A stretch of DNA of 64,000 nt, from assembly GCF_031456275.1 (NCBI RefSeq), contig NZ_JAVDUI010000001.1:806001-870000 (forward strand). The letters are read 5' to 3'. Both the position numbers and the translations under genes were made by a program. Of the stretch, positions 40,890 through 53,911 are shown piece after piece. The DNA comes from Falsarthrobacter nasiphocae. GTDB lineage: Bacteria > Actinomycetota > Actinomycetes > Actinomycetales > Micrococcaceae. Numbering within the stretch: the first letter of the stretch is position 1; each line of letters starts with the position of its first letter. Under the pieces are notes generated by a model. That model was given only the letters and a program-made list of their open reading frames with translations. It did not search any database and had not been told where the DNA came from.

Positions 40890-41396
40890 CTAGCGGGGCG
40901 CGATGAAGGAGAGCAGGCGCGCGTCACGCCCGTCCAGCTCCGCCCAGGGGGTGTCCGTCTCGAAAAGGCAGAGGCCCGCCGTGGGGTACTCCGTGGCCAT
41001 CTCGATGACGGCCTCCTGGTCAGAGTCCATGCTCGCCAGCCGCATGGCCGTCTCCTGAACCCCTGGCATGTGCGCCACGATGAGGAGGGAGTCCACGGTG
41101 GCCGGGGCCTGGTTGATGACCGAGACGATCTCCGCCGCCGTGGCGTTGTACAGGCCGTCCATGAGGCGCGGCGTGGGGCCCTGCTCCCCCAGGGACTCGC
41201 CGATCCACGCGGCCGTCTGCCGGGTGCGCAGCGCGCTGGAGACCAGAATGCACTCCGGCACCCAGCCGTGCTCCTTCAGCGCCTCGCCGACAAGAGGGGC
41301 CTGCGCATGGCCCGCCGCGGAGAGCGGGCGCTCGTGGTCCTCGACGCCTCGGGGAAAGGCCGCCGTAGCGTGTCGAACAATACTGAGTCTGCGCAC
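40890..41396 (-). CDS. sixA: Phosphohistidine phosphatase SixA-like
   Basis: This small histidine phosphatase has 168 residues. The RHG-type motif is LSIVRHATAAF (catalytic His8), and LSAAGHAQA, SALRTRQTA and VAHMPGVQ supply the other arginines and second His. SixA removes phosphate from phosphohistidine in relay or PTS proteins; actinobacterial relatives may have other targets. It is convergent with the TetR gene and follows the winged-helix regulator gene on the same strand by 30 bases, so both could share a transcript. Confidence 0.85.
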   Translation of the reverse strand: MRRLSIVRHATAAFPRGVEDHERPLSAAGHAQAPLVGEALKEHGWVPECILVSSALRTRQTAAWIGESLGEQGPTPRLMDGLYNATAAEIVSVINQAPATVDSLLIVAHMPGVQETAMRLASMDSDQEAVIEMATEYPTAGLCLFETDTPWAELDGRDARLLSFIAPR

Positions 41397-41426
41397 GCGG
41401 CCCCCTTCTCTGGCGGCAATGACCGC

Positions 41427-42245
41427 CTAAATGTAATATTCCGGGGCCGTCCATACGACGACCTCCGGGTGCTCAAAGAAACGGTACCCCTCGCCGCGCA
41501 CCGTTCGCACCGCGCCCGAGAGCCGGCCCAGTTTGGTGCGCAGCCGCCGGATATGGACATCAATGGTTCGCAGACTGGGCTGCTCCCCCACCGCGCCCCA
41601 GATCTCCGTGAGCATCTCCTCACGGCTCACCACGCGGTGCTGATTCTCCACAAGGAGGAAAATGAGCTCGAATTCCTTGAACGTCAGGCTCAGCGGAACG
41701 CCGTCGAGGTAGACCTCCCGGCGGGCGAGGTCAATGAGGACACCCGCGACGGAGACCACCTTGGAGGACTTCTCCTTCTCCTCCTGGCTCGGCTTCCTCC
41801 GCGGGGCGGGACGGGGAGGCATCCCCGGGTCCCCCAGGGCGCGGCGGACGATCTCGAGGTCGTCCCCCGCCGCGTCCGTCGGAGCGAGGGCCACGGCCGC
41901 GTGAGACTCCGCCTGCGGGACGAGCTCATGAATGTAGGCCCGCGCCTGCTGCGCCACCCGGGTCAGGGACAATCCGGCCTCATGCGCGGTCTGCTCGCTG
42001 AGCCCCACGTAGATGACAAACCCGCGCGCCACCGCGTCCGGCAGCCCCGACCCCGGCTCTGCGGGAGGGGTTGCGACGACGGCGGCTGGCGCCGTCAGGA
42101 CCACCCCGTTGCCCACATGGGCCGCCCCATAGGGGCCCGCGGGCCGCCCCACCCCCACCTGAGCGCCGTAGACGGAGCTATTCGCTTCCTGCGACACGTG
42201 ACTCACGCGCCGGGAGACATGGACGTAGCCGGAAGTGGTGGGCAT
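41427..42245 (-). CDS. Winged-helix transcriptional regulator without receiver domain
   Basis: The 272-residue protein has a C-terminal OmpR/PhoB-type winged helix (about 165-262: FKEFELIFLLVENQHRVVSREEM, then RTIDVHIRRLRTKLG and VRTVRGEGYRFF). The N-terminal 160 residues are not a phosphoreceiver: there is a low-complexity region to about 65, then a small domain (FVIYVGLSEQTAHEAG...AYIHELVP) of unknown type. It ends with an unusual aromatic tail EYYI. Similar stand-alone OmpR-DNA-binding proteins occur in Micrococcaceae, but I cannot name its regulon. A partner kinase is absent. Confidence 0.78.
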   Translation of the reverse strand: MPTTSGYVHVSRRVSHVSQEANSSVYGAQVGVGRPAGPYGAAHVGNGVVLTAPAAVVATPPAEPGSGLPDAVARGFVIYVGLSEQTAHEAGLSLTRVAQQARAYIHELVPQAESHAAVALAPTDAAGDDLEIVRRALGDPGMPPRPAPRRKPSQEEKEKSSKVVSVAGVLIDLARREVYLDGVPLSLTFKEFELIFLLVENQHRVVSREEMLTEIWGAVGEQPSLRTIDVHIRRLRTKLGRLSGAVRTVRGEGYRFFEHPEVVVWTAPEYYI

Positions 42246-42384
42246 GGCAGACCTTTAGCGTGCGCGGAATGCTGGTGCACGGTCCTCCTCGACGAGCGCC
42301 GACAAGGCACGCGCATACCCAATAATAATGCAACCGACTGTCGTTTCATGATCAGCTCGGGCTCCCGCCCGGCCTCACGTCGAC

Positions 42385-43020
42385 CTAGCCCGCCACCCCG
42401 TAGAGCCGATCACCCGCATCGCCGAGGCCGGGCACGATGTACGACTTCTCGTTGAGGCGCTCGTCAATCGACGCGAGAACCAGCGAGACAGGCAGGCCGT
42501 CCAGCTCGTCCTCAAGGACCTTGAGGCCCTCCGGCGCGGCGAGAAGGCACAGGCACGTGACGGACTCGGCGCCGCGCTTGAGCAGGAAGCGGACAGCCTC
42601 CTTGAGCGTGCCGCCCGTGGCCAGCATGGGATCCAAGACGAACACCTGGCGGCCCGTCAGGTCCTCAGGCAGGCGCTCCGCGTAGGTGATGATGTCCAGC
42701 GTCTCCTCGTTACGAGCCATGCCGAGGAATCCGACCTCCGCGGTGGGGACCAGGCGGATCATGCCCTCCAGCATGCCGAGGCCCGCCCGAAGAATCGGGA
42801 CTACGAGGGGTGTCGGCTTCGCAAACGCCGTGCCCACGGTGCGAGTCACGGGCGTCTCGATCTCGACGGGGACCGTCTTGACGTCCCGCGTGGCCTCGTA
42901 CGCCAGCAGCGTCACGAGCTCCTCCGTGAGCTTCCGGAAGACGAGGGAGGGCGTCCGCACGTCGCGAAGCACGGTGAGCTTGTGGGCGACGAGGGGGTGG
43001 TCGACGACGAGAGTGCGCAT
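42385..43020 (-). CDS. upp: Uracil phosphoribosyltransferase
   Basis: The enzyme converts uracil and PRPP to UMP in pyrimidine salvage. The 211-residue protein matches the family length. The PRPP loop is [10 protein letters not shown] (Asp130-Thr138), and the uracil-binding C-terminal region [12 protein letters not shown] is present, as is the ILRAGLGM segment. It is divergent from tadA across 24 bases, so their promoters must overlap. The spacing to the next same-strand gene is about 140 bases. Confidence 0.97.
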
Positions 43021-43044
43021 ACGGAAAAACTACCATTGAGGACT

Positions 43045-43551
43045 ATGAGCTCCCCTAGACAGCCGGCCCCCAACGGGCCGCCCCCGTCTGACGCACAGGC
43101 CCGGGCCTGGATGGGTCTCGCCCTCGACGAGGCCCGGCGTGCGCCGGCGGCGGGGGACGTGCCGATAGGCGCCGTCGTCGTCAGCCCTGAGGGCCACGTC
43201 CTGGGGGCGGGGTACAACCAGAGGGAGCGAGACGGCGACCCGACCGCCCACGCCGAAGTCATTGCGCTGCGAGACGCCGTGCGGGCGATGGGCGACTCGT
43301 GGCGGCTTGAGGACTGCACGCTCGTGGTCACGCTGGAGCCGTGCGCAATGTGCGCGGGGGCGATTGTCCTGTCCCGGGTGCGACGCGTGATTTTCGGGGC
43401 GTGGGACGAGAAGGCCGGGGCGGCGGGGAGCGTTTTCGACGTGCTGCGCGAGCCGCGGCTCAACCATTTTGTGGAGGTCATTCCCCGCGTCAGGGAGGAC
43501 GAGTGCGCCGAGCTGCTCCGCGGCTTCTTCCGGGGCCTCCGCGGCGCGTAG
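43045..43551 (+). CDS. tadA: tRNA adenosine(34) deaminase TadA
   Basis: The enzyme deaminates A34 to inosine in tRNA-Arg(ACG), which is encoded at 37 kb in this window. The 168-residue protein has the zinc site His69-Ala-Glu71 (TAHAEVIAL) and PCAMC (Cys100 and Cys103), plus the substrate loop DEKAGAAGS. ATG 43045 gives the usual N-terminus after a Pro-rich stretch; the open frame extends antisense into upp. Divergent from upp and upstream of tRNA-Ser(CGA). Confidence 0.93.
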   Translation: MSSPRQPAPNGPPPSDAQARAWMGLALDEARRAPAAGDVPIGAVVVSPEGHVLGAGYNQRERDGDPTAHAEVIALRDAVRAMGDSWRLEDCTLVVTLEPCAMCAGAIVLSRVRRVIFGAWDEKAGAAGSVFDVLREPRLNHFVEVIPRVREDECAELLRGFFRGLRGA

Positions 43552-43649
43552 GCGCGCCCCGGGGAACGGGCCCGGCTTTGGGCGTTGAGGTGGGCCCGGC
43601 CCCGACCGTTTGGGGGAAAGCGGGCGCATCGGATAGAGTAGTCGGGCTG

Positions 43650-43737
43650 GGTGACGTGTCCGAGCGGCCGAAGGTGCAACACTCGAAATGTTGTGTACGG
43701 TAACCCCGTACCGAGGGTTCAAATCCCTCCGTCACCG
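43650..43737 (+). tRNA. tRNA-Ser (anticodon CGA)
   Basis: A class II tRNA, 88 nt: acceptor GGTGACG/CGTCACC, anticodon stem CAACA/TGTTG around CTCGAAA, long variable arm GTACGG...CCGTAC, T-arm GAGGGTTCAAATCCCTC. CCA is encoded (43738-43740). A TAGAGT -10 lies at 43634-43639. Confidence 0.96.
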
Positions 43738-43744
43738 CCACAGC

Positions 43745-43788
43745 GAAGGCCCGTGCTTCCCTGAGAAATCAAGGGAGTGCGGGCCTTC
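43745..43788 (+). terminator. Terminator of tRNA-Ser(CGA)
   Basis: Imperfect long stem GAAGGCCCG...TTCCCT with AGGGAGTGCGGGCCTTC, followed by a T-containing stretch; it begins 5 bases after the encoded CCA. Confidence 0.75.
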
Positions 43789-43831
43789 TGCATGTCCGGG
43801 GCGGGGTCCGTGCCCACCATTCGCCGATGGC

Positions 43832-43854
43832 GGGTTAGCGGCCAAAAAGTGTGT
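43832..43854. repeat. Left terminal inverted repeat of the IS
   Basis: GGGTTAGCGGCCAAAAAGTG then TGT; matches the right end with a single C/T difference at position 8. Confidence 0.88.
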
Positions 43855-43868
43855 TTTTCTCGGGCGTG

Positions 43869-45020
43869 TCATGGCCGTCCTGCCCACCCTTGCTGGGTTC
43901 CGTTCCCGTCCTCCCAGCTGAACCCGTGGCCCCACAGCTCGGGCCCGATGACCTCCTCGACGCCCGCGATGGTGTCCTCCCGGGCCTGGTAGTGCTCGGC
44001 GCGGATGAGCTCGCTCGCTGGTCGAGTGTCCACGCTCAAGGACCGGAAATACCAGGCCGCCGCCACGGGGGCCCGGTGCCTGGGGATCCCGCGATGTGAC
44101 CGGAAGAGCTCCTTGAGCCCGGCATTGACCCCACCCTCGAGCGGACTTGTCGTACGCGGCAGCACTTCCCCGGGCCTGGCTTGTTCCAACCACGTGAAGA
44201 GATGCCCGGCTTTGCGCACGCGCTCTAGGGTGAAATACGCCCGCCGAAGACGCTGATGCGTGTACCACCACGCCGCGCTCACAGGCACGCTCGAGGGCCT
44301 CACCAGGCCAGCACGGGCGTACGTGCGCTCCGTCAGAAACGCCCGCCAGGCCCCATGCCACGCGGCCAACGAAGCCTCCCACGAGGCCGCCTGGTCCAGG
44401 GAGGAGACCTTCGGCAACGCCCGGGCCAGCGACCGAAGTTGCCGCCCTGCCTGTAGCACGGGCCGGCGAGTGAGATGCTCATCCACCCGGTGAAGCAGAT
44501 GAAAGAGACACCGTTGAACCCGGGTGGCGGGCCACAGCTCGCCGATCACGGTCAGAGCCGCGGCGTTCCCATCGACGATGACGATGTCCGGGGCCGGGAT
44601 CATCTCCAGCAGCGCGGCCCATGACGCGCGCTTCTCCCGGTCGCAGAACTGCCACGCCACGACATGCTCACCGGTGTAGGCCACGAGCGCGCACCAGGTG
44701 TTGAAGTACGTCCCATCCAGCATCAGCACCCGGTGGACTTCCCCGGTCAGTACTGGTTCCGGGGCCACGTTCCAGCACCAGGCATGCTGGCGGCGGAAGG
44801 TGCGAGCGGGCCCGTGCTCGCCCTGGGTCGTACGTCCAAGGAGCCAGTCCTCGAAGCGGTGGATCTGGTGGGCCCGCGTCAGGTCACCCCGGCGGGCTGG
44901 GGTGGTGGACGCTCCGCAGGATGAGCATCGGTAGCGCGGGCGTCCTGCGCTGGTCGTGCCGTTCTTGATCAGGGTCTGGGCGCATACACCACAACGGGGC
45001 CGATTCGCGGGAAGGGGCAT
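43869..45020 (-). CDS. IS1249-type transposase
   Basis: This DDE transposase has 383 residues. An N-terminal zinc ribbon (CGVC...CSSC, about residues 9-36) and a basic helix-turn-helix region precede the catalytic core. The first Asp is in VLMLDGTYF, the second in IVIVDGN, and the Glu in TTSPLEGGVNAG, as expected for IS256-related mutator transposases. The C-x2-H-type segment RCLFHLLHRVDEHL between the second Asp and Glu is also typical. Length fits IS1249 relatives and no stop or frameshift is seen, so it may be active. Confidence 0.93.
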   Translation of the reverse strand: MPLPANRPRCGVCAQTLIKNGTTSAGRPRYRCSSCGASTTPARRGDLTRAHQIHRFEDWLLGRTTQGEHGPARTFRRQHAWCWNVAPEPVLTGEVHRVLMLDGTYFNTWCALVAYTGEHVVAWQFCDREKRASWAALLEMIPAPDIVIVDGNAAALTVIGELWPATRVQRCLFHLLHRVDEHLTRRPVLQAGRQLRSLARALPKVSSLDQAASWEASLAAWHGAWRAFLTERTYARAGLVRPSSVPVSAAWWYTHQRLRRAYFTLERVRKAGHLFTWLEQARPGEVLPRTTSPLEGGVNAGLKELFRSHRGIPRHRAPVAAAWYFRSLSVDTRPASELIRAEHYQAREDTIAGVEEVIGPELWGHGFSWEDGNGTQQGWAGRP

Positions 45021-45090
45021 TCATCATGCTTGCAGAGTAAGTCAACGGGCGTATAGCCCTACTGCCGACTGGGAAGCAGGCCCCTGCCAC

Positions 45091-45113
45091 ACACACTTTT
45101 TGGCCACTAACCC
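45091..45113. repeat. Right terminal inverted repeat of the IS
   Basis: ACACACTTTTTGGCCACTAA then CCC, the reverse complement of the left end except one base. Confidence 0.88.
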
Positions 45114-45301
45114 CCGATGACGGGGGTGCATTTCGCACCGCGGGCTGAGCCGGCCTGACCCCTACGAAGCCGCCGCAACAGCGCCCCCATCCTGGCCCGA
45201 ACTCGGGTCGATCAGTTGTCCCCCAACGTCCTCCGGACATGACAACCCCCTCCGGGGCGTGAGAAACTGAGGCACAACACTGGGCGAAGGAGGGTGCGGC
45301 A

Positions 45302-45481
45302 ATGAATCGCCAAGAGCAGTGGGAACGCAACGCTGAGCGCGACGAGCGCGAGCGCTACCGCGAGGCCATGGGCTACCTCCGCCCTGCAGATGAGCGACGC
45401 GCTGAGCGCCTCGCGCGGGCCAAGACCTCCAGCATCAAGCCTCGCAAACTCTCCGAAGTCCTCGGACACACTTACGTCTAG
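45302..45481 (+). CDS. Small, highly charged hypothetical protein
   Basis: This 59-residue protein begins MNRQEQWERNAERDERERYR and is nearly half Arg, Glu and Asp, so it should form a single charged helix; the C-terminus (SSIKPRKLSEVLGHTYV) is different in character. ATG 45302 is preceded by an AAGGAGG ribosome site at proper distance, which supports translation. I know of no family. It lies between the IS element and the acyl-CoA dehydrogenase-like gene, and may be missed by length filters. Confidence 0.6.
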   Translation: MNRQEQWERNAERDERERYREAMGYLRPADERRAERLARAKTSSIKPRKLSEVLGHTYV

Positions 45482-45617
45482 GCCGTGTCGGGCACCTGGA
45501 CACAGGACCCAGCAATCGCGAGGGTGCCGCTCAGCTGCGGTGCCTCGCCGCGGGATCGGTAGGCTTGACTGGAGAGGCCCCGTGCGGAACACCGCACCAC
45601 CGAGGAGGACACCGAGC

Positions 45618-46619
45618 ATGTCGAGCGCCGATCCATCCCCTGCCATTCGTCTAGGCACAGCTGAGGCCCCTTCCGAGCGCATTGCGCTCCTCAACGAGGC
45701 CTGGCCGGGCCTCGCGGGCGCACCCTTCGGCGAGATCTGGGGCGTCCTGGCCGAGATCGCCGAGGCAGACCTGGGCGCGGCCCGCATGGTCGAGCCCCAC
45801 CTCGACGCCCTGAGCATCCTGTCCCAGGCCCCCGAGCCGCGCCCGGCCGTCCCGGACGGCTCCACGTGGGGCGTCTTCGCCGCCGAGGCCCCCGGCTCCC
45901 GCCTCGAGGCGCACCGGCAGGAGGACGGGTCCTGGGCCCTGACCGGTGTCAAGCCCTGGTGCTCCCTGGCCGGCGAGTTGAGCCACGCCATCGTGACGGC
46001 GCACGTCAAGGGCGGCCGCCAGGCGTTCGCCGTCGCCCTCCAGGGGCCGGGGGTGACGCCGCTGGAGGATGCGTGGCCGAGCCGCGGGCTCTCGGAGATC
46101 CCCAGCGGGCCCGTGGAGTTCACGGGCGCCCCCGCAGAGCCCGTCGGCGGCACGGACTGGTACCTGACGCGGCCCGGATTCGCCTGGGGCGGGATCGGGG
46201 TGGCTGCATGCTGGCTCGGCGGGGCAACGGGTCTGGCCCGGGCCGCCGTGACCGCCGCGCAGACCAAGCCGGAAGGTCCAGACACGGCCGTGCTGGCGGC
46301 GCTGGCCGGACGGATCGACGTCGAGATTCTCACCGCCTGCACCCTCCTGCGCGCCGCCGCTCGCGTGGCCGAGGGCCACGAGCCCTGCCCAGATGCCGCC
46401 GAGTGGACCTATGCCCTGCGCGTGCGCACCGCCGTCCACCGCGCCGCGACCACCGTCCAAGCCCTCAGCCGCGAGCTCGCGGGCCCGGCGCTCCTCACCG
46501 GCAACGCGGCGTTCGCGAAGGCTGACGCCGACCTCACCGTCTACGCGAGCCAGCACCACGGCACACGAGACGAGGCCGCCCTCGGCCGCACCCTCCTCTC
46601 AGGAGGCCCCACGTGGTGA
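45618..46619 (+). CDS. Acyl-CoA dehydrogenase-like flavoprotein
   Basis: The 333-residue protein is shorter than classical acyl-CoA dehydrogenases (about 380). WGVFAAEAPGSRLEA and WALTGVKPWCSLAG correspond to the flavin-binding strand region, and GGIGVAACWLGGATGLARAAV to the C-terminal helical domain. The usual catalytic Glu region is not apparent. It is the first gene of a coupled trio, overlapping the PIG-L/methyltransferase gene by 7 bases, which suggests a dedicated biosynthetic step and not general beta-oxidation. ATG 45618 follows GGAGGA. Confidence 0.82.
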   Translation: MSSADPSPAIRLGTAEAPSERIALLNEAWPGLAGAPFGEIWGVLAEIAEADLGAARMVEPHLDALSILSQAPEPRPAVPDGSTWGVFAAEAPGSRLEAHRQEDGSWALTGVKPWCSLAGELSHAIVTAHVKGGRQAFAVALQGPGVTPLEDAWPSRGLSEIPSGPVEFTGAPAEPVGGTDWYLTRPGFAWGGIGVAACWLGGATGLARAAVTAAQTKPEGPDTAVLAALAGRIDVEILTACTLLRAAARVAEGHEPCPDAAEWTYALRVRTAVHRAATTVQALSRELAGPALLTGNAAFAKADADLTVYASQHHGTRDEAALGRTLLSGGPTW

Positions 46620-48094
46620 CCTTCCACCACACTGACGCCTCCACGCCCGAGGAGTCCTGGCTTGACGCGGGCGTGGGGCAGCTCCCACTCCTGGACGCGC
46701 GGCTCCTGGCTGGCGCCTCACGCGTCGTCGTCCTCGCGGCCCACCCGGACGACGAGCTGCTCGGCTGCGCCGCCCTCCTCGCAGAGACCGAGCGGCTGGG
46801 CGTGGACACCGTGGCGATCCTCTTCACGGGCGGCGAGAACTCCCACCCCCGCTCCCCCACGGTGACGCCGGAGCAGCTCGCGGAGCTGCGCGCGGCGGAG
46901 TTCGAGGCCCTCTCGGGCGCGCTCTTCCCCTCGGCCCGGACCGTGCACCCGGGGCTGACGGACGGGCGCGTGGCCGAGTCCCCGGAGGCCGTCCGCGACG
47001 CCCTGGACGCCGCGCTGGCGGGGTGCGACGCCGCGCGGGCCGTCGTCGTCTCCCCGCGCCACGACGACGGGCACCCGGACCACGAGACCCTCGGCGAGGC
47101 GGCCCTGGCCGCCGGGCGCGCTCTCGGCGCCACGGTCCTCGAGTACCCCATCTGGTACTGGCACTGGGCGGGCCCCGAGGACGCGCGCTGGCGCTCGTGG
47201 GTGCGTCTGCCGGACCCAGCGGGCCTGGACCGCGACGCCCTGTGGGCGCTCTACCCCACGCAGACGCGGCCGCTCTCGCCTGCGCCGGGAGACGAGGCCA
47301 TCGTCCAGCCAGACTTCCTCGCGCACTTCCTGCGCGGATTCGAGACCTTCGAGGTCACGCAGACGGACCGGAATGAGGCCGCGCAGGCGCACCGGGATGA
47401 GGCCGCGCTGGCGCACCCGGACGCGGCGCGCGTCTTTGATCAAGTCCATCAGGACGACGACCCCTGGCGGACCTATACCTCCGCATACGAGGCGCGCAAG
47501 CGCGCCACCCTGATCGGGCTGCTCAAGGAGGCCCGCGGCGGGCGGGTGCCGGGCTCCGACGAGTCCGAGCTGGGCCGCGGTGCCGGTGCGGATGACGGTG
47601 GGAGTGACGGCGCCTCCGCCGATGCGGACAGGCCGTATGCGCGCGCCTTCGAGATCGGCTGCTCGGTGGGCGCGCTCACCGGGGACCTGACCCGGATCAG
47701 CGAGCGCGTCCTCGCCGTGGACGCGAGCGCCGAGGCCCTTGAGCAGGCCCAGGCCAAGCAGGGCGGCCGTGCGGGCGTCGAGTTCCGCCAGATGCTCGTG
47801 CCGGAGTCCTGGCCGGAGGGGTCGTTCGACCTCATCGTGCTCTCGGAGACTGGGTATTACCTCACCGAGGCCGACCTGCGCGCGACGTTCGCGAAGATCG
47901 CGGCGTCCGCGTCCGGCGGCGGCGCCGTCGTCGCCCTCTGCCACTGGCGAGGCGACATTGAGGGGTGGCCGCTGGACGCCGCGGCCGTCCACCGGATGGC
48001 GCGCGAGACGTGGCCCGGAGAGCGGGTGGCGTCCCACGAGGACCCCGATTTCCTCATCGACCTCTTCGATATCGCGGGCCCCAGTGGACGCTGA
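46613..48094 (+). CDS. Bifunctional PIG-L deacetylase / SAM-dependent methyltransferase
   Basis: A 493-residue fusion. The N-terminal LmbE/PIG-L domain (about 35-270) has the zinc motif AAHPDDELLG (44-48) and DDGHPDHETLG, used to deacetylate N-acetylglucosamine-type groups. The C-terminal half (about 300-490) is a NodS-like class I methyltransferase with FEIGCSVGALTGDL and VLSETGYYLT. Between them lies an Ala/Asp-rich region with repeated EAALAH-type units. GTG 46613 follows AGGAGG at 6 bases. Deacetylation followed by N-methylation recalls NodB/NodS of Nod factors. The glycosyltransferase gene overlaps its end by 11 bases. Confidence 0.88.
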   Translation: MVTFHHTDASTPEESWLDAGVGQLPLLDARLLAGASRVVVLAAHPDDELLGCAALLAETERLGVDTVAILFTGGENSHPRSPTVTPEQLAELRAAEFEALSGALFPSARTVHPGLTDGRVAESPEAVRDALDAALAGCDAARAVVVSPRHDDGHPDHETLGEAALAAGRALGATVLEYPIWYWHWAGPEDARWRSWVRLPDPAGLDRDALWALYPTQTRPLSPAPGDEAIVQPDFLAHFLRGFETFEVTQTDRNEAAQAHRDEAALAHPDAARVFDQVHQDDDPWRTYTSAYEARKRATLIGLLKEARGGRVPGSDESELGRGAGADDGGSDGASADADRPYARAFEIGCSVGALTGDLTRISERVLAVDASAEALEQAQAKQGGRAGVEFRQMLVPESWPEGSFDLIVLSETGYYLTEADLRATFAKIAASASGGGAVVALCHWRGDIEGWPLDAAAVHRMARETWPGERVASHEDPDFLIDLFDIAGPSGR

Positions 48095-48956
48095 CGCACC
48101 CAGGCGCGGCGAGGGCCGGACGCCCGGCTCGGGCAGAAACCTCAGCGGGGGCCGGCTCCTCGGCGTCGTCATCCCGGCCAGGGACGAGGAGTCAGGCGTG
48201 GGCGCGACACTCCGCTCCGTCCTGGACTCGCTCGACGCGGCGGAGGCGGCGACCGCCGCCGAGGCAGGGCGGCCCGGCAGCGAGCCGGCCCTCGCGTGCC
48301 ACGTGGTCTGCGTGGTGGACGGCGGGGAGGACGCGACCCTGGACATCGCGCGGCGGATCGCGGCCGACGACCCCCGCATCGAGGTCCTGGCCCAGACGTC
48401 TTCCGGCGTGGGCGCCGCGCGGCGCGCCGGCTGCGAGCGGGTGTTCGCGTGGGCCAGCCAGGTGTCCGGCTCGCCCGTGCCTCCGCGCCTGTGGATAGGG
48501 ACGACGGACGCCGACAGCCTCGTCCCCCGCGGCTGGGCGTCGGCCCATCTGGGCAGCGAGGCGGCGGGCGAGGACATGCTCGTCGGCATGGTCCGCCCTG
48601 ACGAGAACGGGGCCGATCCCGAGCTCATCGCCGCCTGGCACCGCCTGCACCCCGCCACGGAGGGGCACCCGTTCGTCTTCGGCGCGAACTTGGGCTTCCG
48701 AGCCGCGGCCTACCGGGCCGTGGGCGGCTTCTCCGCCGTGAAGCACGGGGAGGACGTGGGCCTCGTGGCGGCCTTCGAGACGGCCGGCGCCCGCATCCGC
48801 CGCTCCCCCGTGCCGTGTGTGACAACCTCCGCGAGGCTCGCGGGCCGGGTCGAGGACGGGTTCAGCACTTACGTGCGGGAGCTGGCGTCGACCCTGCCTG
48901 CGGGGGCCGAGGCGGGGCGGGCGGGCTGCCCGCCTGCCGAACTGCGCCATGCATGA
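48084..48956 (+). CDS. GT2-family glycosyltransferase
   Basis: The protein has 290 residues. GVVIPARDEESGVGATLRSV is the typical start of a GT-A glycosyltransferase 2 domain, with GTTDADSLVP as the metal-binding DxD motif. FGANLGFRAAAYRAVGGF and HGEDVGLV carry the acceptor-site ED motif. No membrane helix is seen, so it is cytoplasmic. GTG 48084 overlaps the preceding gene by 11 bases. With the acyl-CoA dehydrogenase and deacetylase/methyltransferase it forms a small biosynthetic operon, possibly making a modified amino-sugar glycolipid. Confidence 0.86.
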   Translation: MDADAPRRGEGRTPGSGRNLSGGRLLGVVIPARDEESGVGATLRSVLDSLDAAEAATAAEAGRPGSEPALACHVVCVVDGGEDATLDIARRIAADDPRIEVLAQTSSGVGAARRAGCERVFAWASQVSGSPVPPRLWIGTTDADSLVPRGWASAHLGSEAAGEDMLVGMVRPDENGADPELIAAWHRLHPATEGHPFVFGANLGFRAAAYRAVGGFSAVKHGEDVGLVAAFETAGARIRRSPVPCVTTSARLAGRVEDGFSTYVRELASTLPAGAEAGRAGCPPAELRHA

Positions 48957-49063
48957 CCCGTCCACGCCGGCTATGAGCCCAGTTTCCGGGGCTCGGGGGC
49001 CCGAACATGACGCGCTTCGGGGAAAGGCGTCGCGGTTGGGCGGGAGCCACCCCACCCGATTAA

Positions 49064-49078
49064 TGAGAATGAGTCTCA
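49064..49078. promoter_or_regulatory. Zur-like box
   Basis: TGAGA-ATGAG-TCTCA, an inverted repeat resembling Fur/Zur-family sites, ends two bases before a TAAGAT -10 (49081-49086). It precedes the AztD-like gene, so repression by zinc through Zur is plausible. Confidence 0.55.
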
Positions 49079-49097
49079 CTTAAGATAAAGTGTCCGC

Positions 49098-50516
49098 ATG
49101 ACCAATCACTCTCACCTCTCCAGCGAGCGCGCACGCCGCCCTCGCGCTCGTCTGTCCACCGCTGGCCCCGCCCTTCTCGCCGCGGCGCTCCTCGCGGGCT
49201 GCGCCTCGCCGTCACCCTCCCCGGAGACGACGGCCGGCGCGCCCGCGTCCGACAGCCCCTCCGCACCCCAGAGCGCGTCACACGGCCCATCACAAAGCCC
49301 CTCGCAGGGCGCCGCCGCTAGCACCGACGCCCACGCCAAGGATGCGGGCAACGGCCACGGCACCGAGGTCGCAGCCCCGGTGCCCCGCCTCGTGGCAACG
49401 TACGACGGCGGCGTCCTCACCCTCGACGCCACGACGCTCGAGCAGGTCGCCGACGAGAAGATCCCCGGTTTCCTCCGCGTCAACCCCGCCGGGGACGGCC
49501 GCCACGCGTTCCTCTCCACAGACAAGGGCTTCCGCCTCTTCGACGCGGGGACGTGGAGCGAGGCGCACGGGGACCACTCGCACTCCTACACCGCGGATCC
49601 CAAGGCCACCTCAGCCACCGTCGCTGCGGATCACCCGGGTCACGTCGTGGTCCACGGCGGCCGCACGGCCCTCTTCGCCGACGGCACGGGAACGGTCTCT
49701 CTTCTCGAGACAGACGCGATCGCCAAGGGCGCGGAGGCGGGCTCGCTCCGCCCCGTGGGGAGCGTCTCGGCACCCCAGCCGCACCACGGCGTCGCCGTCC
49801 CCCTGCCGGACGGCGGGCTCGCGATGACCCGATCCAAGGGCGAGGAGCGCACGGGCATGAGCGTGTACGCGAAGGACCTCAAGACCGTCACGCACAGCTC
49901 CGACGACTGCCCGGGCACCCACGGCGAGGCCGTCGCGAAGGGCGGCGCCGTCGTCTTCGGCTGCGAGAACGGAGTCCTCATCTACACGAAGGGCGCCATC
50001 AAGAAGGTCGCCTCACCGGACAAGATCGGGCGGATCGGCAACCAGGCGGGCAGCGAGGCCTCGCCGATCGTCCTGGGCGACTACAAGGTCCGCCCCTCCG
50101 AGGGCACCCGCGAGCACCCGACGCGCGTGAGCCTCATCGACACCCGCACCGGCACGATCCGCCTCGTCGACGTCAAGGCGAGCTACACGTTCCGCTCCCT
50201 GGGCCGCGGCCCGGCGGGCGAGGCCCTCGTCCTGGGCACGGACGGCAAGCTGCGCGTCCTCGACCCGGCCACCGGCCGCATCACCAAGGAAATCCGGGTC
50301 ACGGACGCGTGGACGGAGCCCGAGGAGTGGCAGAAGCCCCGCCCGGCCCTGCACGTCCAGGGGGCCACGGCATACGTCACGGATCCGGCCACCCGGCGCC
50401 TCGTCTCGGTGGACATTCCGTCCGGGGAGATCGTCAAGGAGACGACGACGACGCAGCCGATCAACGAGATCACGAGCGTGACCGGCAAGGCCGCCCGCGC
50501 GCCCCACTCCCACTGA
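49098..50516 (+). CDS. aztD: AztD-like zinc metallochaperone, lipoprotein
   Basis: This predicted extracytoplasmic zinc chaperone has 472 residues. The signal peptide ends in a lipobox LLAGC (Cys35). A Ser/Pro linker with His-rich HGTEVAAP follows, then a beta-propeller-like domain with His motifs (EAHGDHSHSY, QPHHGVAVP, GTHGEAV) and a C-terminal APHSH. In Paracoccus, AztD hands zinc to the AztABC transporter; no such transporter genes are adjacent here. ATG 49098 lies about 11 bases after a TAAGAT -10 with no ribosome site, suggesting a nearly leaderless transcript under the Zur-like box. Confidence 0.85.
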   Translation: MTNHSHLSSERARRPRARLSTAGPALLAAALLAGCASPSPSPETTAGAPASDSPSAPQSASHGPSQSPSQGAAASTDAHAKDAGNGHGTEVAAPVPRLVATYDGGVLTLDATTLEQVADEKIPGFLRVNPAGDGRHAFLSTDKGFRLFDAGTWSEAHGDHSHSYTADPKATSATVAADHPGHVVVHGGRTALFADGTGTVSLLETDAIAKGAEAGSLRPVGSVSAPQPHHGVAVPLPDGGLAMTRSKGEERTGMSVYAKDLKTVTHSSDDCPGTHGEAVAKGGAVVFGCENGVLIYTKGAIKKVASPDKIGRIGNQAGSEASPIVLGDYKVRPSEGTREHPTRVSLIDTRTGTIRLVDVKASYTFRSLGRGPAGEALVLGTDGKLRVLDPATGRITKEIRVTDAWTEPEEWQKPRPALHVQGATAYVTDPATRRLVSVDIPSGEIVKETTTTQPINEITSVTGKAARAPHSH

Positions 50517-50522
50517 ACCGAG

Positions 50523-50561
50523 CGCGCCGCCGTCCGAGCGTGGAGCTCGAGCGGCGGCGCG
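50523..50561. terminator. Bidirectional terminator aztD / transporter
   Basis: Perfect 10-bp stem (50523-50532 with 50552-50561) and 19-base loop between two convergent genes, followed by GTCGTCGTTCT. Confidence 0.75.
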
Positions 50562-50582
50562 TCGTCGTCGTTCTGAGAAGAA

Positions 50583-51938
50583 CTAGCCGGTGACGATGGC
50601 CCCGGTGAGGATGGCCACGCCCAGCATGACGAGGGAGAGGACCACGCAGCGCCAGAGGACCTTCTTGTGGTGATCGCCGAGCTCGACGCCCGCGAGGGAG
50701 ACGAGAAGGAGGATCGCCGGGACGAGGGGCGACTGGAGGTGGAACGGCTGGCCCGTCAGGGAGGCGCGGGCCATGGAGGCCGGGTCCACGCCGAACTGCG
50801 AGGCGGTCTGCGCCAGGATCGGGAGGATGCCGAAGTAGAACGCGTCGTTGCTCATGAGGAACGTCAGCGGGATGGACAGCAGGCCCGTGATGAGCGGCAG
50901 GTGCGGGCCCCACTCGGTGGGGATGACGTCGACGAGCCAGTGGGCCATGGCGTCCACCATGCCCGTGCCGCTCAGCACGCCCGTCAGGACGGCGGCCGCC
51001 ATGACCATGCCGACGACGGCCACGATGGACCGGCCGTGCTCCGTGACGCGCTCGAGCTGCTCCTTCGGGCTGGGGAAGTTGACGACGATCGCCACGGCCA
51101 CACCGACCATGAAGATGTACGGCAGCGGGAGGACGTCCACGACAAGGAGGACCATGATCGCGAGCGTCAGCAGGAGGTTGAACCAGAAGAGCTTGGGCCT
51201 CAGGGTGGAGCGGTTCGGGTCGAGCGCGTTGTCGGCCATGACCGTGTCCCGCTCGTCGACGAGGTCCAGGGCGGGCAGGCGCGAGTCGTCGAGGAGGTTG
51301 CCGCTCCACGCGTCCGGGTAGGCGGCCTTGAGGCGGCGGCGCTCGAGGATGCCGAGGTGCCACGAGAACGCGAAGACGCAGAGCATGGTCACGGCCATGG
51401 CAGGCACGAGCGGCACGAACACGTCTGTGACGGACAAGTGCAGGGCCGTCGCCGCGCGGGCGGTGGGGCCGCCCCACGGGATGATGTTCATCGTGGCGTT
51501 GGCCATGGCCGCCACGACGGTGAGGACCACGGGGCTCATGCGCAGACGCCGGTAGATCGGCAGGAGCGCGGCCGTGGTGAGGATGAACGTCGTCGAGCCG
51601 TCACCGTCAAGGGAGACCGCTGCCGCCAGGACCGCTGTGCCGACGACGATCTTCATGGGGTCGTTGCCGGAGATCCGCTGGATGAAGTCGACGAGGCGGT
51701 CGAAGAGGCCGACGTCGATCATGAGACCGAAGTACATGATCGCGAACATCAAGAGGGCCGCGGTGGAGGTCATCGACTTCATGGACGTCATGACCATGTC
51801 GCCGATTCCGAGGCCGGCGCCCGCGAAGAGGCCGAAGACCGTCGGGACGATGATGAGCGCCAGGACAGGCGTCAGCTTCTTGGTCATGATGAGCGTCATG
51901 AAGACGGCGATCATGATGAAGCCGAGGAGGACGAGCAT
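50583..51938 (-). CDS. CitMHS-family citrate:metal symporter
   Basis: This transporter has 451 residues and about 12 hydrophobic helices. GDGSTTFILTTAALLPIYRRL and IIPWGGPTARAATAL are typical CitMHS segments, and NDAFYFGILPILAQTA lies in the second half. The family takes up citrate complexed with Mg or Ca. ATG 51938 follows GAAGGAG. It is divergent from a CitA/DcuS-like sensor kinase and response regulator, the common arrangement for citrate-responsive control. Confidence 0.92.
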   Translation of the reverse strand: MLVLLGFIMIAVFMTLIMTKKLTPVLALIIVPTVFGLFAGAGLGIGDMVMTSMKSMTSTAALLMFAIMYFGLMIDVGLFDRLVDFIQRISGNDPMKIVVGTAVLAAAVSLDGDGSTTFILTTAALLPIYRRLRMSPVVLTVVAAMANATMNIIPWGGPTARAATALHLSVTDVFVPLVPAMAVTMLCVFAFSWHLGILERRRLKAAYPDAWSGNLLDDSRLPALDLVDERDTVMADNALDPNRSTLRPKLFWFNLLLTLAIMVLLVVDVLPLPYIFMVGVAVAIVVNFPSPKEQLERVTEHGRSIVAVVGMVMAAAVLTGVLSGTGMVDAMAHWLVDVIPTEWGPHLPLITGLLSIPLTFLMSNDAFYFGILPILAQTASQFGVDPASMARASLTGQPFHLQSPLVPAILLLVSLAGVELGDHHKKVLWRCVVLSLVMLGVAILTGAIVTG

Positions 51939-52126
51939 GGGAACTCCTTCGTTCCGTGGAGACTGCAGTCCGCAGGGCGCCGGGCGGAGCCGGGCCACGC
52001 ACTGGGGCGTGATCTCGCTCACTGCGGAGGTTTCGACTGACGCTATCGTGAGCCCTGTCACGCTTGCGCGCTTTGGCTCATATGGGTCGTTTTGATCATT
52101 CGGCGCGTTGCGTGCATTCTGCTCAC

Positions 52127-53911
52127 ATGAGCTTTCGCCGCCTCCCCGCCGCACGCGGAGCCCGCACCGCCCGCCGCGGGCGCGGGTTCCAGCGGCGGCT
52201 CGCGGGCGTCATGGTGGGGCTCGTCCTCATCGTGGCCGCCCTCATCGGCGCGTCCCACGCGTGGCGCCTCAACGCCCGCATCATGGAGAGCACCCAGGAC
52301 AAGGCCCTGACGCTCGCGCGCGCGGTCGCCGCCGAGCCCGAGATCATCTCCGAGGCCGCCCGGATCTCCTCGGGGCCGCCGCCGAGCCCCGCCGACCTCC
52401 GCACGGGACCGATCCAACGGGCCGCCGCCGACATCACGCGGCGCACGGGCGCCCTCTTCGTCGTCGTCACCGACGAGAGCGGGATTCGGCTCAGCCACCC
52501 CGACCCAGCCCGCCTCGGCGAGCGCGTCAGCACGGACCCCTCCGGCGCGCTCGCGGGCCGGGACGAGGTCACGGGGGACACGGGCACGCTCGGCCCCTCG
52601 GCCGGAGCCAAGGTCCCGGTCCGGGACGGGTCGGGCCGGATCGTGGGGATCGTGTCCGTGGGCTTCGAGAGCGGCGAGCTCGCCGAGCAGTGGCTCCGGG
52701 ACGCCCGCTGGGGCATCCTCGCGACCCTCGCGGCCGCCCTCCTCGGCGTCGGCGCGTCCATCGTCGTCTCCCGCAGCCTTCACCGCGAGATCCTCGGGCT
52801 CGAGCCGGAGGAGATCGCCGGTCTCGTCACCGAGCAGGAGGCCGTCCTCCACGGCGTCGACGAAGGCGTGCTCGGCGTGGACCCGGACTTCACCGTGCGC
52901 GTAGCCAACCGGGCGGCCCTCGCCATGCTCCCCGGGGTCACGGTCGGCGCGCCCGCGGACGCAGAACACGTCCCGGACGAGCTCGTGGAGCTCCTCCACC
53001 ATGCGGCGGCGAGCGCCGGATCGGCCGCGAGCCCCCTGGAGACCGGGCCGCACACCGGGCCCCGGGACGCCGGAACCCGCACCGTCGTCGCCGGCGAGCG
53101 CATCCTCGTCTGCACGGTGCGCCCCGTCCGGCGGCGGGACGCGGACCTCGGCTACGCCGTCGTCGTCAGAGACCGCACCCAGGTGCAGGAGATGAGCCGG
53201 GAGCTCGCGGATGCCCGCGCGCTGACCGCCGCCCTGAGGATCCAGCGCCACGAGTTCTCGAACCAGCTCCACACCATCGCCGGCCTCGTCGACGCAGGCG
53301 CCCTCGAGGAGGCGTCCGAGTACGTCCTCGCCCTGACGGAGACCCGCCGGCTCGGCAGCGGCATGGCGGGGCTCGAGTGCATCGAGGACGAGAGCCTGCG
53401 CTCCTTCCTCGCCGCCAAAGCGGCGCAGGCCCACGAGCGCTCGGCGAGCCTGGTCCTCGGGGACAGCAGCGGCCTCACCTCCCGCCTCCGCGTCCCGCAG
53501 GGCCTCCAGGACACGACGACGGTCCTCGGCAACCTCGTGGACAACGCGCTGGCGGCGGCGATCGCCGCCCAGACCCCCTCCCCGGCCGTGCTCGTCGACA
53601 TCGTGGAACACGACGGCGTCCTGCACCTGGCCGTCACCGACACGGGCGCGGGGATCGCCGAGCCCGAGCTCGCGTTCACCCAGGGGTACTCGCGGGTGCC
53701 GAGCCTGCGAGGAGAGGCCGGGGGCCACGGCATCGGCCTGCCGCTCGTGCGCCGGATCGCGCGGGCCCGCGGCGGAGACGTCTGGATCGGGGCGAGGGCC
53801 GGCACCGAGATCGCCGCCCCCGAGCTGCCCCACCACTGGACCGGCGCCACCGTGTGCGCGCGCCTCCCCGGCGTCCTGCTCCCGCCCCGAGAACAGCCCG
53901 ACCACCCCTAA
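52127..53911 (+). CDS. CitA/DcuS-family sensor histidine kinase
   Basis: The protein has 594 residues. A first helix (about 25-43) and a second (about 190-208) flank an extracytoplasmic PAS-type domain that contains TGALFVVVTDESGIRLSHPD, the pattern of citrate/C4-dicarboxylate sensors. A cytoplasmic PAS follows. The phosphoacceptor His is in RIQRHEFSNQLHTIAGLV (about residue 377), and the ATPase domain has VDNALAAAI, DTGAGI and GHGIGLPLV. ATG 52127 gives a normal N-terminus. The response-regulator gene follows after 10 bases. Divergence from the CitMHS gene implies it controls that transporter. Confidence 0.92.
   Translation: MSFRRLPAARGARTARRGRGFQRRLAGVMVGLVLIVAALIGASHAWRLNARIMESTQDKALTLARAVAAEPEIISEAARISSGPPPSPADLRTGPIQRAAADITRRTGALFVVVTDESGIRLSHPDPARLGERVSTDPSGALAGRDEVTGDTGTLGPSAGAKVPVRDGSGRIVGIVSVGFESGELAEQWLRDARWGILATLAAALLGVGASIVVSRSLHREILGLEPEEIAGLVTEQEAVLHGVDEGVLGVDPDFTVRVANRAALAMLPGVTVGAPADAEHVPDELVELLHHAAASAGSAASPLETGPHTGPRDAGTRTVVAGERILVCTVRPVRRRDADLGYAVVVRDRTQVQEMSRELADARALTAALRIQRHEFSNQLHTIAGLVDAGALEEASEYVLALTETRRLGSGMAGLECIEDESLRSFLAAKAAQAHERSASLVLGDSSGLTSRLRVPQGLQDTTTVLGNLVDNALAAAIAAQTPSPAVLVDIVEHDGVLHLAVTDTGAGIAEPELAFTQGYSRVPSLRGEAGGHGIGLPLVRRIARARGGDVWIGARAGTEIAAPELPHHWTGATVCARLPGVLLPPREQPDHP

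Follow-up and report, generated by a model that had tools for sequence, protein, structure and literature searches.

What do three overlapping genes for a flavoenzyme, a deacetylase fused to a methyltransferase and a glycosyltransferase make together? The question arises from a stretch of 64,000 nucleotides (nt) of Falsarthrobacter nasiphocae (assembly GCF_031456275.1, contig NZ_JAVDUI010000001.1, positions 806,001 to 870,000; here called the window), in which an earlier note had described such a trio and likened it to the chemistry of Nod factors (deacetylation, N-methylation, acylation and glycosylation). Open reading frames (ORFs), Pfam matches and a predicted fold bear out its naming of the genes as those of a flavin enzyme, a PIG-L deacetylase joined to a NodS-like methyltransferase, and a family 2 glycosyltransferase (GT2). 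Our reading, to which we give a probability of about 0.53, is that the three genes, with their four activities, form one pathway for a small modified amino-sugar glycoside and belong to stress physiology. The GT2 would first glycosylate a small acceptor with an N-acetylamino sugar, PIG-L, or a NodB-like deacetylase in other lineages, would remove the N-acetyl group, and the NodS-like domain would methylate the freed amine with S-adenosylmethionine. Finally, the flavoenzyme would oxidize, perhaps by flavin-dependent oxygenation of the sugar, the amine or the aglycone.

Linkage of the Three Genes

When named genomes were searched with the fused protein, 28 loci came up (Arthrobacter, Pseudarthrobacter, Brevibacterium, Paeniglutamicibacter, Haematomicrobium, Microbacterium, Gulosibacter, a Rothia metagenome-assembled genome and others), with the flavoenzyme gene adjoining in 28/28 and the GT2 gene in 27/28. 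The 8.2-kb Rothia contig begins within the flavoenzyme gene and holds only its end; no GT2 match was found on it despite some 6.5 kb of downstream sequence. Linkage was then measured on 59 Actinomycetota loci, mostly one per genus, chosen by the methyltransferase alone with a profile of that domain (A2) built to pick loci independently of the fusion. Tested on ten named genomes, of which four had contributed rows to A2, the profile gave cassette members at least 152.9 bits and other methyltransferases at most 44.2, and at E ≤ 1e-15 the family proved patchy (51/396 genomes across the phylum, 87/297 in the order). Within 5 kb of the 59 methyltransferases the flavoenzyme was matched at 58 loci, the GT2 at 58 and PIG-L at 44, by profiles trained on earlier loci, some of them from the same genomes. 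The trio occurred in 0/40 control regions drawn from 28 of the same genomes, where two PIG-L genes were the sole matches. The arrangement is far beyond chance and the trio is a constant set, so the suspicion that the genes might rarely be linked, which the earlier note had suggested checking across genomes, does not hold. PIG-L and the methyltransferase share one reading frame in 29/44 loci and therefore probably act in succession.

Additionally, the fused protein matched 52 plasmid records, of which 23 were read, picked for breadth and not randomly. All four domains were matched in the stretch read at 16 of the 23 loci: Kitasatospora, Pandoraea, Acinetobacter (3), Bradyrhizobium, Comamonas (2), Deinococcus sp. 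NW-56, Nostoc, Novosphingobium, Sphingobium (2), Sulfitobacter, Komagataeibacter and Legionella. The set is thus present in plasmid records of alpha-, beta- and gammaproteobacteria, Deinococcus and Nostoc. Of the remaining loci, those of Rubrobacter and two of Cupriavidus are without a PIG-L profile match (in Cupriavidus basilensis a PIG-L gene is annotated next to a catalase gene, on the opposite strand), those of D. radiodurans and Roseomonas are without a GT2 nearby, and those of Paraburkholderia and D. proteolyticus have the methyltransferase and GT2 only, with an annotated PIG-L gene 8.5 kb away in D. proteolyticus.

Deacetylase, Methyltransferase and Glycosyltransferase

The PIG-L domain of the fusion reaches 71.6 bits in Pfam (cut-off 28.2), and its metal-binding HPDDE and D-x-H-x-D-H motifs are retained at 90% or more in an alignment of 74 loci. 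PIG-L has no profile match at 15 of the 59 Actinomycetota loci. In 11 of these, a NodB-like polysaccharide deacetylase gene lies upstream of the flavoenzyme gene on the same strand, with 213–639 nt between the matched parts of the two, and a Pyr_redox_2-type flavoprotein gene lies downstream of the methyltransferase, followed by the GT2 gene. Ten of these 11 loci share one family code; three deacetylases and a single oxidoreductase were checked with Pfam, and the probes for deacetylase and oxidoreductase matched 1 and 2 of the 40 control regions, respectively. The rest of the 15 comprise L103, which has a divergent PIG-L by Pfam, together with L101, L148 and L111, the last with only the methyltransferase matched. 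On the Rubrobacter indicoceani plasmid the deacetylase has NodB (TIGR04243) as its best NCBIfam match, at 113.4 bits against a cut-off of 240, and retains the TFDDGPD and HCVRH motifs. Two unrelated folds in one slot argue that the slot is one of carbohydrate N-deacetylation, and the exchange is the best evidence for such a step as well as the strongest new support for the chemistry that had been proposed: together with the constant gene set it makes deacetylation, N-methylation and glycosylation plausible, while the acylation proposed with them lacks support, for the reasons given under the flavoenzyme.

The NodS domain of the fusion scores 50.8 bits in Pfam (cut-off 24; aa 338–427), and 45.7 bits with the NodS equivalog NF041650, far under its cut-off of 300. 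The domain also matches PDB entry 4isc with 102.5 bits over 145 residues and, by score, this chain is a member of the same family. It is a stand-alone protein of 164 aa, presumably from Pseudomonas syringae, whereas the methyltransferase of the window is fused to PIG-L; we know of no published function for it.

The GT2 has a Pfam Glycos_transf_2 score of 44.2 bits (cut-off 23.3), intact TDAD and ED motifs and a predicted structure of one compact domain. A fold search with it yielded no informative donor or acceptor, the best hit being the fucosyltransferase WrtF at a template-modelling score of about 0.53; the match to mycofactocin MftF (TIGR03965) stays at 30.5 bits against a cut-off of 280, and NodC is absent from the NCBIfam matches of the window protein. 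Two NodB-type loci encode longer GT2 proteins (L129:6248–7813, 522 aa; L136:10645–12330, 562 aa) with a C-terminal part that has no Pfam match, and at a Rubrobacter locus a 546-aa protein without any match is encoded directly after the GT2 gene (L195:11598–13235).

The Flavoenzyme

The sole Pfam match of the flavoenzyme is the acyl-CoA dehydrogenase middle domain, at 31.7 bits just below the cut-off of 33.3, and the window protein has no NCBIfam match. An AlphaFold2 model (mean predicted local distance difference test score 88.8) has the complete acyl-CoA-dehydrogenase fold and superposes on isovaleryl-CoA dehydrogenase with Z 31.0 and a root-mean-square deviation of 2.7 over 321 residues. Foldseek intermixed the monooxygenases DszC, TdsC and MsuC and the nitrososynthases KijD3 and DnmZ with dehydrogenases, and VIA-align returned 50 entries at Z 28.9–31.0 with dehydrogenases in the majority and TdsC at 29.1, a spread too flat for fold searches to separate dehydrogenase from monooxygenase. 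A sequence-profile search of the PDB placed a Thermus acyl-CoA dehydrogenase on top and flavin monooxygenases next. In two further members of the family the best NCBIfam match was SfnB, with 28.6 and 45.3 bits against a cut-off of 430.9. The fold is common to the cassette flavoenzyme, to DszC, MsuC and SfnB and to the amino-sugar nitrososynthases DnmZ and KijD3; the family members lie far under the SfnB cut-off and the window protein, with 333 aa, is shorter than these enzymes. In D. radiodurans the flavoenzyme gene (L063:3172–5508) encodes about 779 aa, and the flavoenzyme match starts only at about residue 400.

The catalytic glutamate was looked for by alignment at its two presumed sites, the usual one of the YEGT type and an alternative one of the isovaleryl type. 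Gln312 and His313 occupy the usual position; Gln312 is present in 21/21 aligned members, none of which has a Glu within three residues of it. By an alignment-based placement, the second site holds Gly in 20/21 and Asp in 1/21, and no Glu. For comparison, L193, an acyl-CoA dehydrogenase encoded in this genome, carries FEGT at the usual site. For the cassette protein, 'acyl-CoA dehydrogenase' is a fold name, and a flavin-dependent oxygenase is a plausible alternative to dehydrogenation. The acylation step of the Nod-factor analogy finds no support here, since the fold does not acylate, the usual Glu is missing and neither a dedicated acyltransferase nor an acyl carrier turns up repeatedly beside the set in 20 annotated plasmid loci, where single GNAT acetyltransferases occur in 2/20. 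Neither NodA nor NodC is among the annotated genes of these 20 loci, whose gene tables are incomplete.

Stress Genes and Promoters

Bacteria that resist drying, peroxide and radiation rely on trehalose, catalases and Dps. Probes for four core groups of such genes (Dps/ferritin, catalase, LigD/Ku and trehalose) were drawn from the loci of named genomes and of plasmids, which leaves the comparison of the 59 loci with the 40 controls as the only one independent of them. A core stress gene lies within about 9 kb at 16/59 loci against 0/40 controls (Fisher p = 1e-4); the 16 are spread over ten family codes, four of them sharing one code, and are not mutually independent. Other stress-type genes, grouped more loosely, were matched at 6/59 loci (p = 0.04) and all groups pooled at 20/59, each against 0/40. 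Stress genes were also seen in 18/28 named and 12/23 plasmid loci, the discovery sets of the probes. Specifically, two Comamonas plasmids have the order otsA-flavoenzyme-PIG-L-methyltransferase-GT2-otsB, each gene abutting or overlapping the next, Legionella lytica has otsB-GH65-PIG-L-methyltransferase-GT2-flavoenzyme, Sulfitobacter has a catalase gene directly after the GT2 gene, and in Novosphingobium and Sphingobium RAC03 a catalase gene and three more glycosyltransferase genes precede the set. Unbiased clustering of neighbours found no further family in most loci. The recurrence of catalase, Dps, LigD/Ku and trehalose genes suggests a stress metabolite rather than a signal, and the stress role would rest on these neighbourhood statistics and on a promoter match in mycobacteria.

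Genus g10 of our data was taken as Mycobacterium, with PPE genes, a mycobacterial marker, in 10/10 genomes tested and 0/14 control genomes. A GT2 match of at least 77 bits was present in 28/60 genomes of this genus. Of 20 loci fetched, 17 have the GT2 and the flavoenzyme, 16 with the GT2 first, and two (L073 and L083) have the GT2 alone. A SigF-like promoter (G[TG][GT]T-N14-17-GG[GC][TA][AT]) lies just upstream in 13 of the 16 GT2-first operons and in 191/5100 random windows (3.7%); this wider pattern was shaped after seeing the sequences and a published promoter, and 13/16 is not a blind test. In one study, MSMEG_1097 ('glycosyl transferase, group 2') changes by -5.63/-5.01 (log2) in an M. 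smegmatis sigF mutant and has GTGT-N15-GGGTT at position 11 from the start codon; the main text names no other gene of the MSMEG_108x–110x range (PMC4694148). A spray-drying study gives the gene as 1.5 in an expression table of its appendix (PMC5445863), and a zinc-homeostasis study lists it at -6.5 fold (PMC7174638). Its promoter has the type and spacing seen at the mycobacterial loci of the cassette, a lead only, as identity with the cassette GT2 could not be shown.

The Locus in the Window

All features of the trio are given in Table 1. Besides its start at 46613, the fusion ORF offers an in-frame GTG at 46616; the flavoenzyme and fusion genes accordingly overlap by 7 (or 4) nt; the overlap of fusion and GT2 genes is 11 nt. 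Such overlapping ends are what translational coupling would lead one to expect. The fused protein has a single match in the 2.2-Mb genome.

Table 1. Genes and domains of the trio in the window (positions count from the first letter of the window).
Feature	Position	Strand	Basis
Flavoenzyme of acyl-CoA-dehydrogenase fold, 333 aa, first gene of the trio	45618..46619	+	ORF, Pfam, predicted model
Fusion of PIG-L deacetylase and NodS-like methyltransferase, 493 aa	46613..48094	+	ORF, Pfam
PIG-L domain, aa 39–167, motifs HPDDE and HDDGHPDH	46727..47113	+	Pfam, alignment
NodS-like methyltransferase domain (S-adenosylmethionine), about aa 338–485	47624..48067	+	Pfam, PDB 4isc match
GT2 glycosyltransferase, 290 aa, GTG start, TDAD and ED motifs	48084..48956	+	Pfam

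Around the trio lie genes for a regulator, a transposase and a protein with a weak likeness to propellers, others for a citrate-type transporter and a sensor kinase, and genes that we read as putative SixA-like, upp and tadA genes. The region 40890–53908 was compared with the nearest relative locus (Arthrobacter sp. UM1): in both genomes the trio lies between the same flanking genes, one flank holding the SixA-like, regulator, upp and tadA genes and the other those for the citrate-type transporter and the sensor kinase. Its orientation relative to these flanks is opposite in the two genomes, so that it was inverted or arrived twice at the same site. A Mutator/MULE-like transposase gene (43869–45020, minus strand) lies just upstream of the trio and may have displaced its original promoter. 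On the other side, a gene at 49098 encodes 472 aa with a weak pyrroloquinoline-quinone-type match and is preceded by TGAGAATGAGTCTCA (49060–49100), which to our eye resembles a zinc-regulator (Zur) box; its product may be a secreted zinc protein. Neither the transposase gene nor the gene at 49098 was matched in the Arthrobacter locus.

Proposed Pathway and Alternatives

Several findings weigh against the proposed stress glycoside. A core stress gene is absent from the stretch read in 43/59 loci, and of the four core groups taken singly, each with 0/40 controls, catalase alone is enriched at p < 0.05 (7/59, p = 0.02), with LigD/Ku at 5/59 (p = 0.07), Dps/ferritin at 4/59 (p = 0.12) and trehalose at 2/59 (p = 0.35). 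Stress probes match 2/20 mycobacterial loci, and none of the neighbours of the trio in the window is a stress gene. General control by SigF or SigB was rejected, a narrow form of the promoter pattern occurring at 3/86 non-mycobacterial loci against a background of 2.9%, and a SigF-like promoter was not found upstream of the window trio. Another acyl-CoA dehydrogenase of the same genome, matched by Pfam (L192), is likewise without Glu at the usual site, so that lack of this residue is by itself no proof against a dehydrogenase. Finally, the PIG-L and NodS families also have members acting on other substrates, and the amino sugar is what we infer.

The cassette could instead tailor a surface glycolipid or polysaccharide. 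The sphingomonad sets come after a family 4 glycosyltransferase (GT4) gene and further glycosyltransferase genes, and D. proteolyticus has a family 1 glycosyltransferase and a UDP-galactopyranose mutase near its methyltransferase-GT2 pair; the GT2, however, is modelled as a single compact domain, and trehalose genes in the same run in Comamonas and Legionella better fit a cytosolic solute, so we hold such glycan decoration to be rather unlikely. More doubtful still is a flavoenzyme that acts as a true acyl-CoA or acyl-ACP dehydrogenase and prepares an acyl group for an acylated product. The fold, the Thermus match and the precedent of L192 speak for it, but Gln or His takes the place of the usual Glu in all 21 members, the presumed alternative site offers none, DszC, KijD3, DnmZ and MsuC match about equally well, and the plasmid loci show no recurring acyltransferase or acyl carrier.

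Nod-factor biosynthesis (NodB, NodC, NodS) likewise combines a deacetylase, a GT2 and a NodS-like methyltransferase, and in loci of the Rubrobacteraceae type the deacetylase is NodB-like; one of the carriers is a Bradyrhizobium plasmid whose host was isolated from a soybean nodule. Membership in that system was nevertheless rejected, with every protein tested under its Nod equivalog cut-off, NodS and NodB included. The cassette differs by its added flavoenzyme, its stress neighbourhood and the lack of NodA among the annotated loci, the annotated neighbours in the 20 plasmid loci include no named nod gene, and most carriers read are not plant symbionts but isolates from soil, the sea, clinical samples and vinegar, along with radiation-resistant ones. 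That the product is an N-methylated chitooligosaccharide or a comparable signal to a host seems very improbable. In mycothiol and bacillithiol synthesis (MshA-MshB, BshA-BshB), a glycosyltransferase is followed by a PIG-L deacetylase that frees the amine on a small glycoside, an order of activities that the cassette would share. It differs by having a GT2 instead of what we take to be a GT4, and a methyltransferase and flavoenzyme instead of the cysteine-adding enzyme. Membership in the bacillithiol pathway was rejected (BshB1 and BshB2 at 29.1 and 25.3 bits, cut-offs 182.5 and 195.25), and there is no MshB model among the NCBIfam matches of the fused protein.

The preferred reading remains the small amino-sugar glycoside of stress physiology. 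As the earlier note had supposed, no description of the gene set, its product or a known pathway with the same set came up in the literature searched, subscription papers lying mostly outside its coverage; the reaction types are known, while their combination, breadth and deacetylase swap appear undescribed. More tentatively, the products may be an undescribed but widespread class of stress metabolites, N-methylated amino-sugar glycosides built perhaps on or alongside trehalose by a patchy plasmid and chromosomal cassette of four phyla, with two deacetylase folds and with the flavoenzyme as sugar or amine oxygenase. The deacetylase swap implies that two unrelated enzymes should share one substrate and, if the reading is true, the four-activity pathway could be a missing piece of the stress-survival kit of these bacteria and possibly the source of a new protectant.

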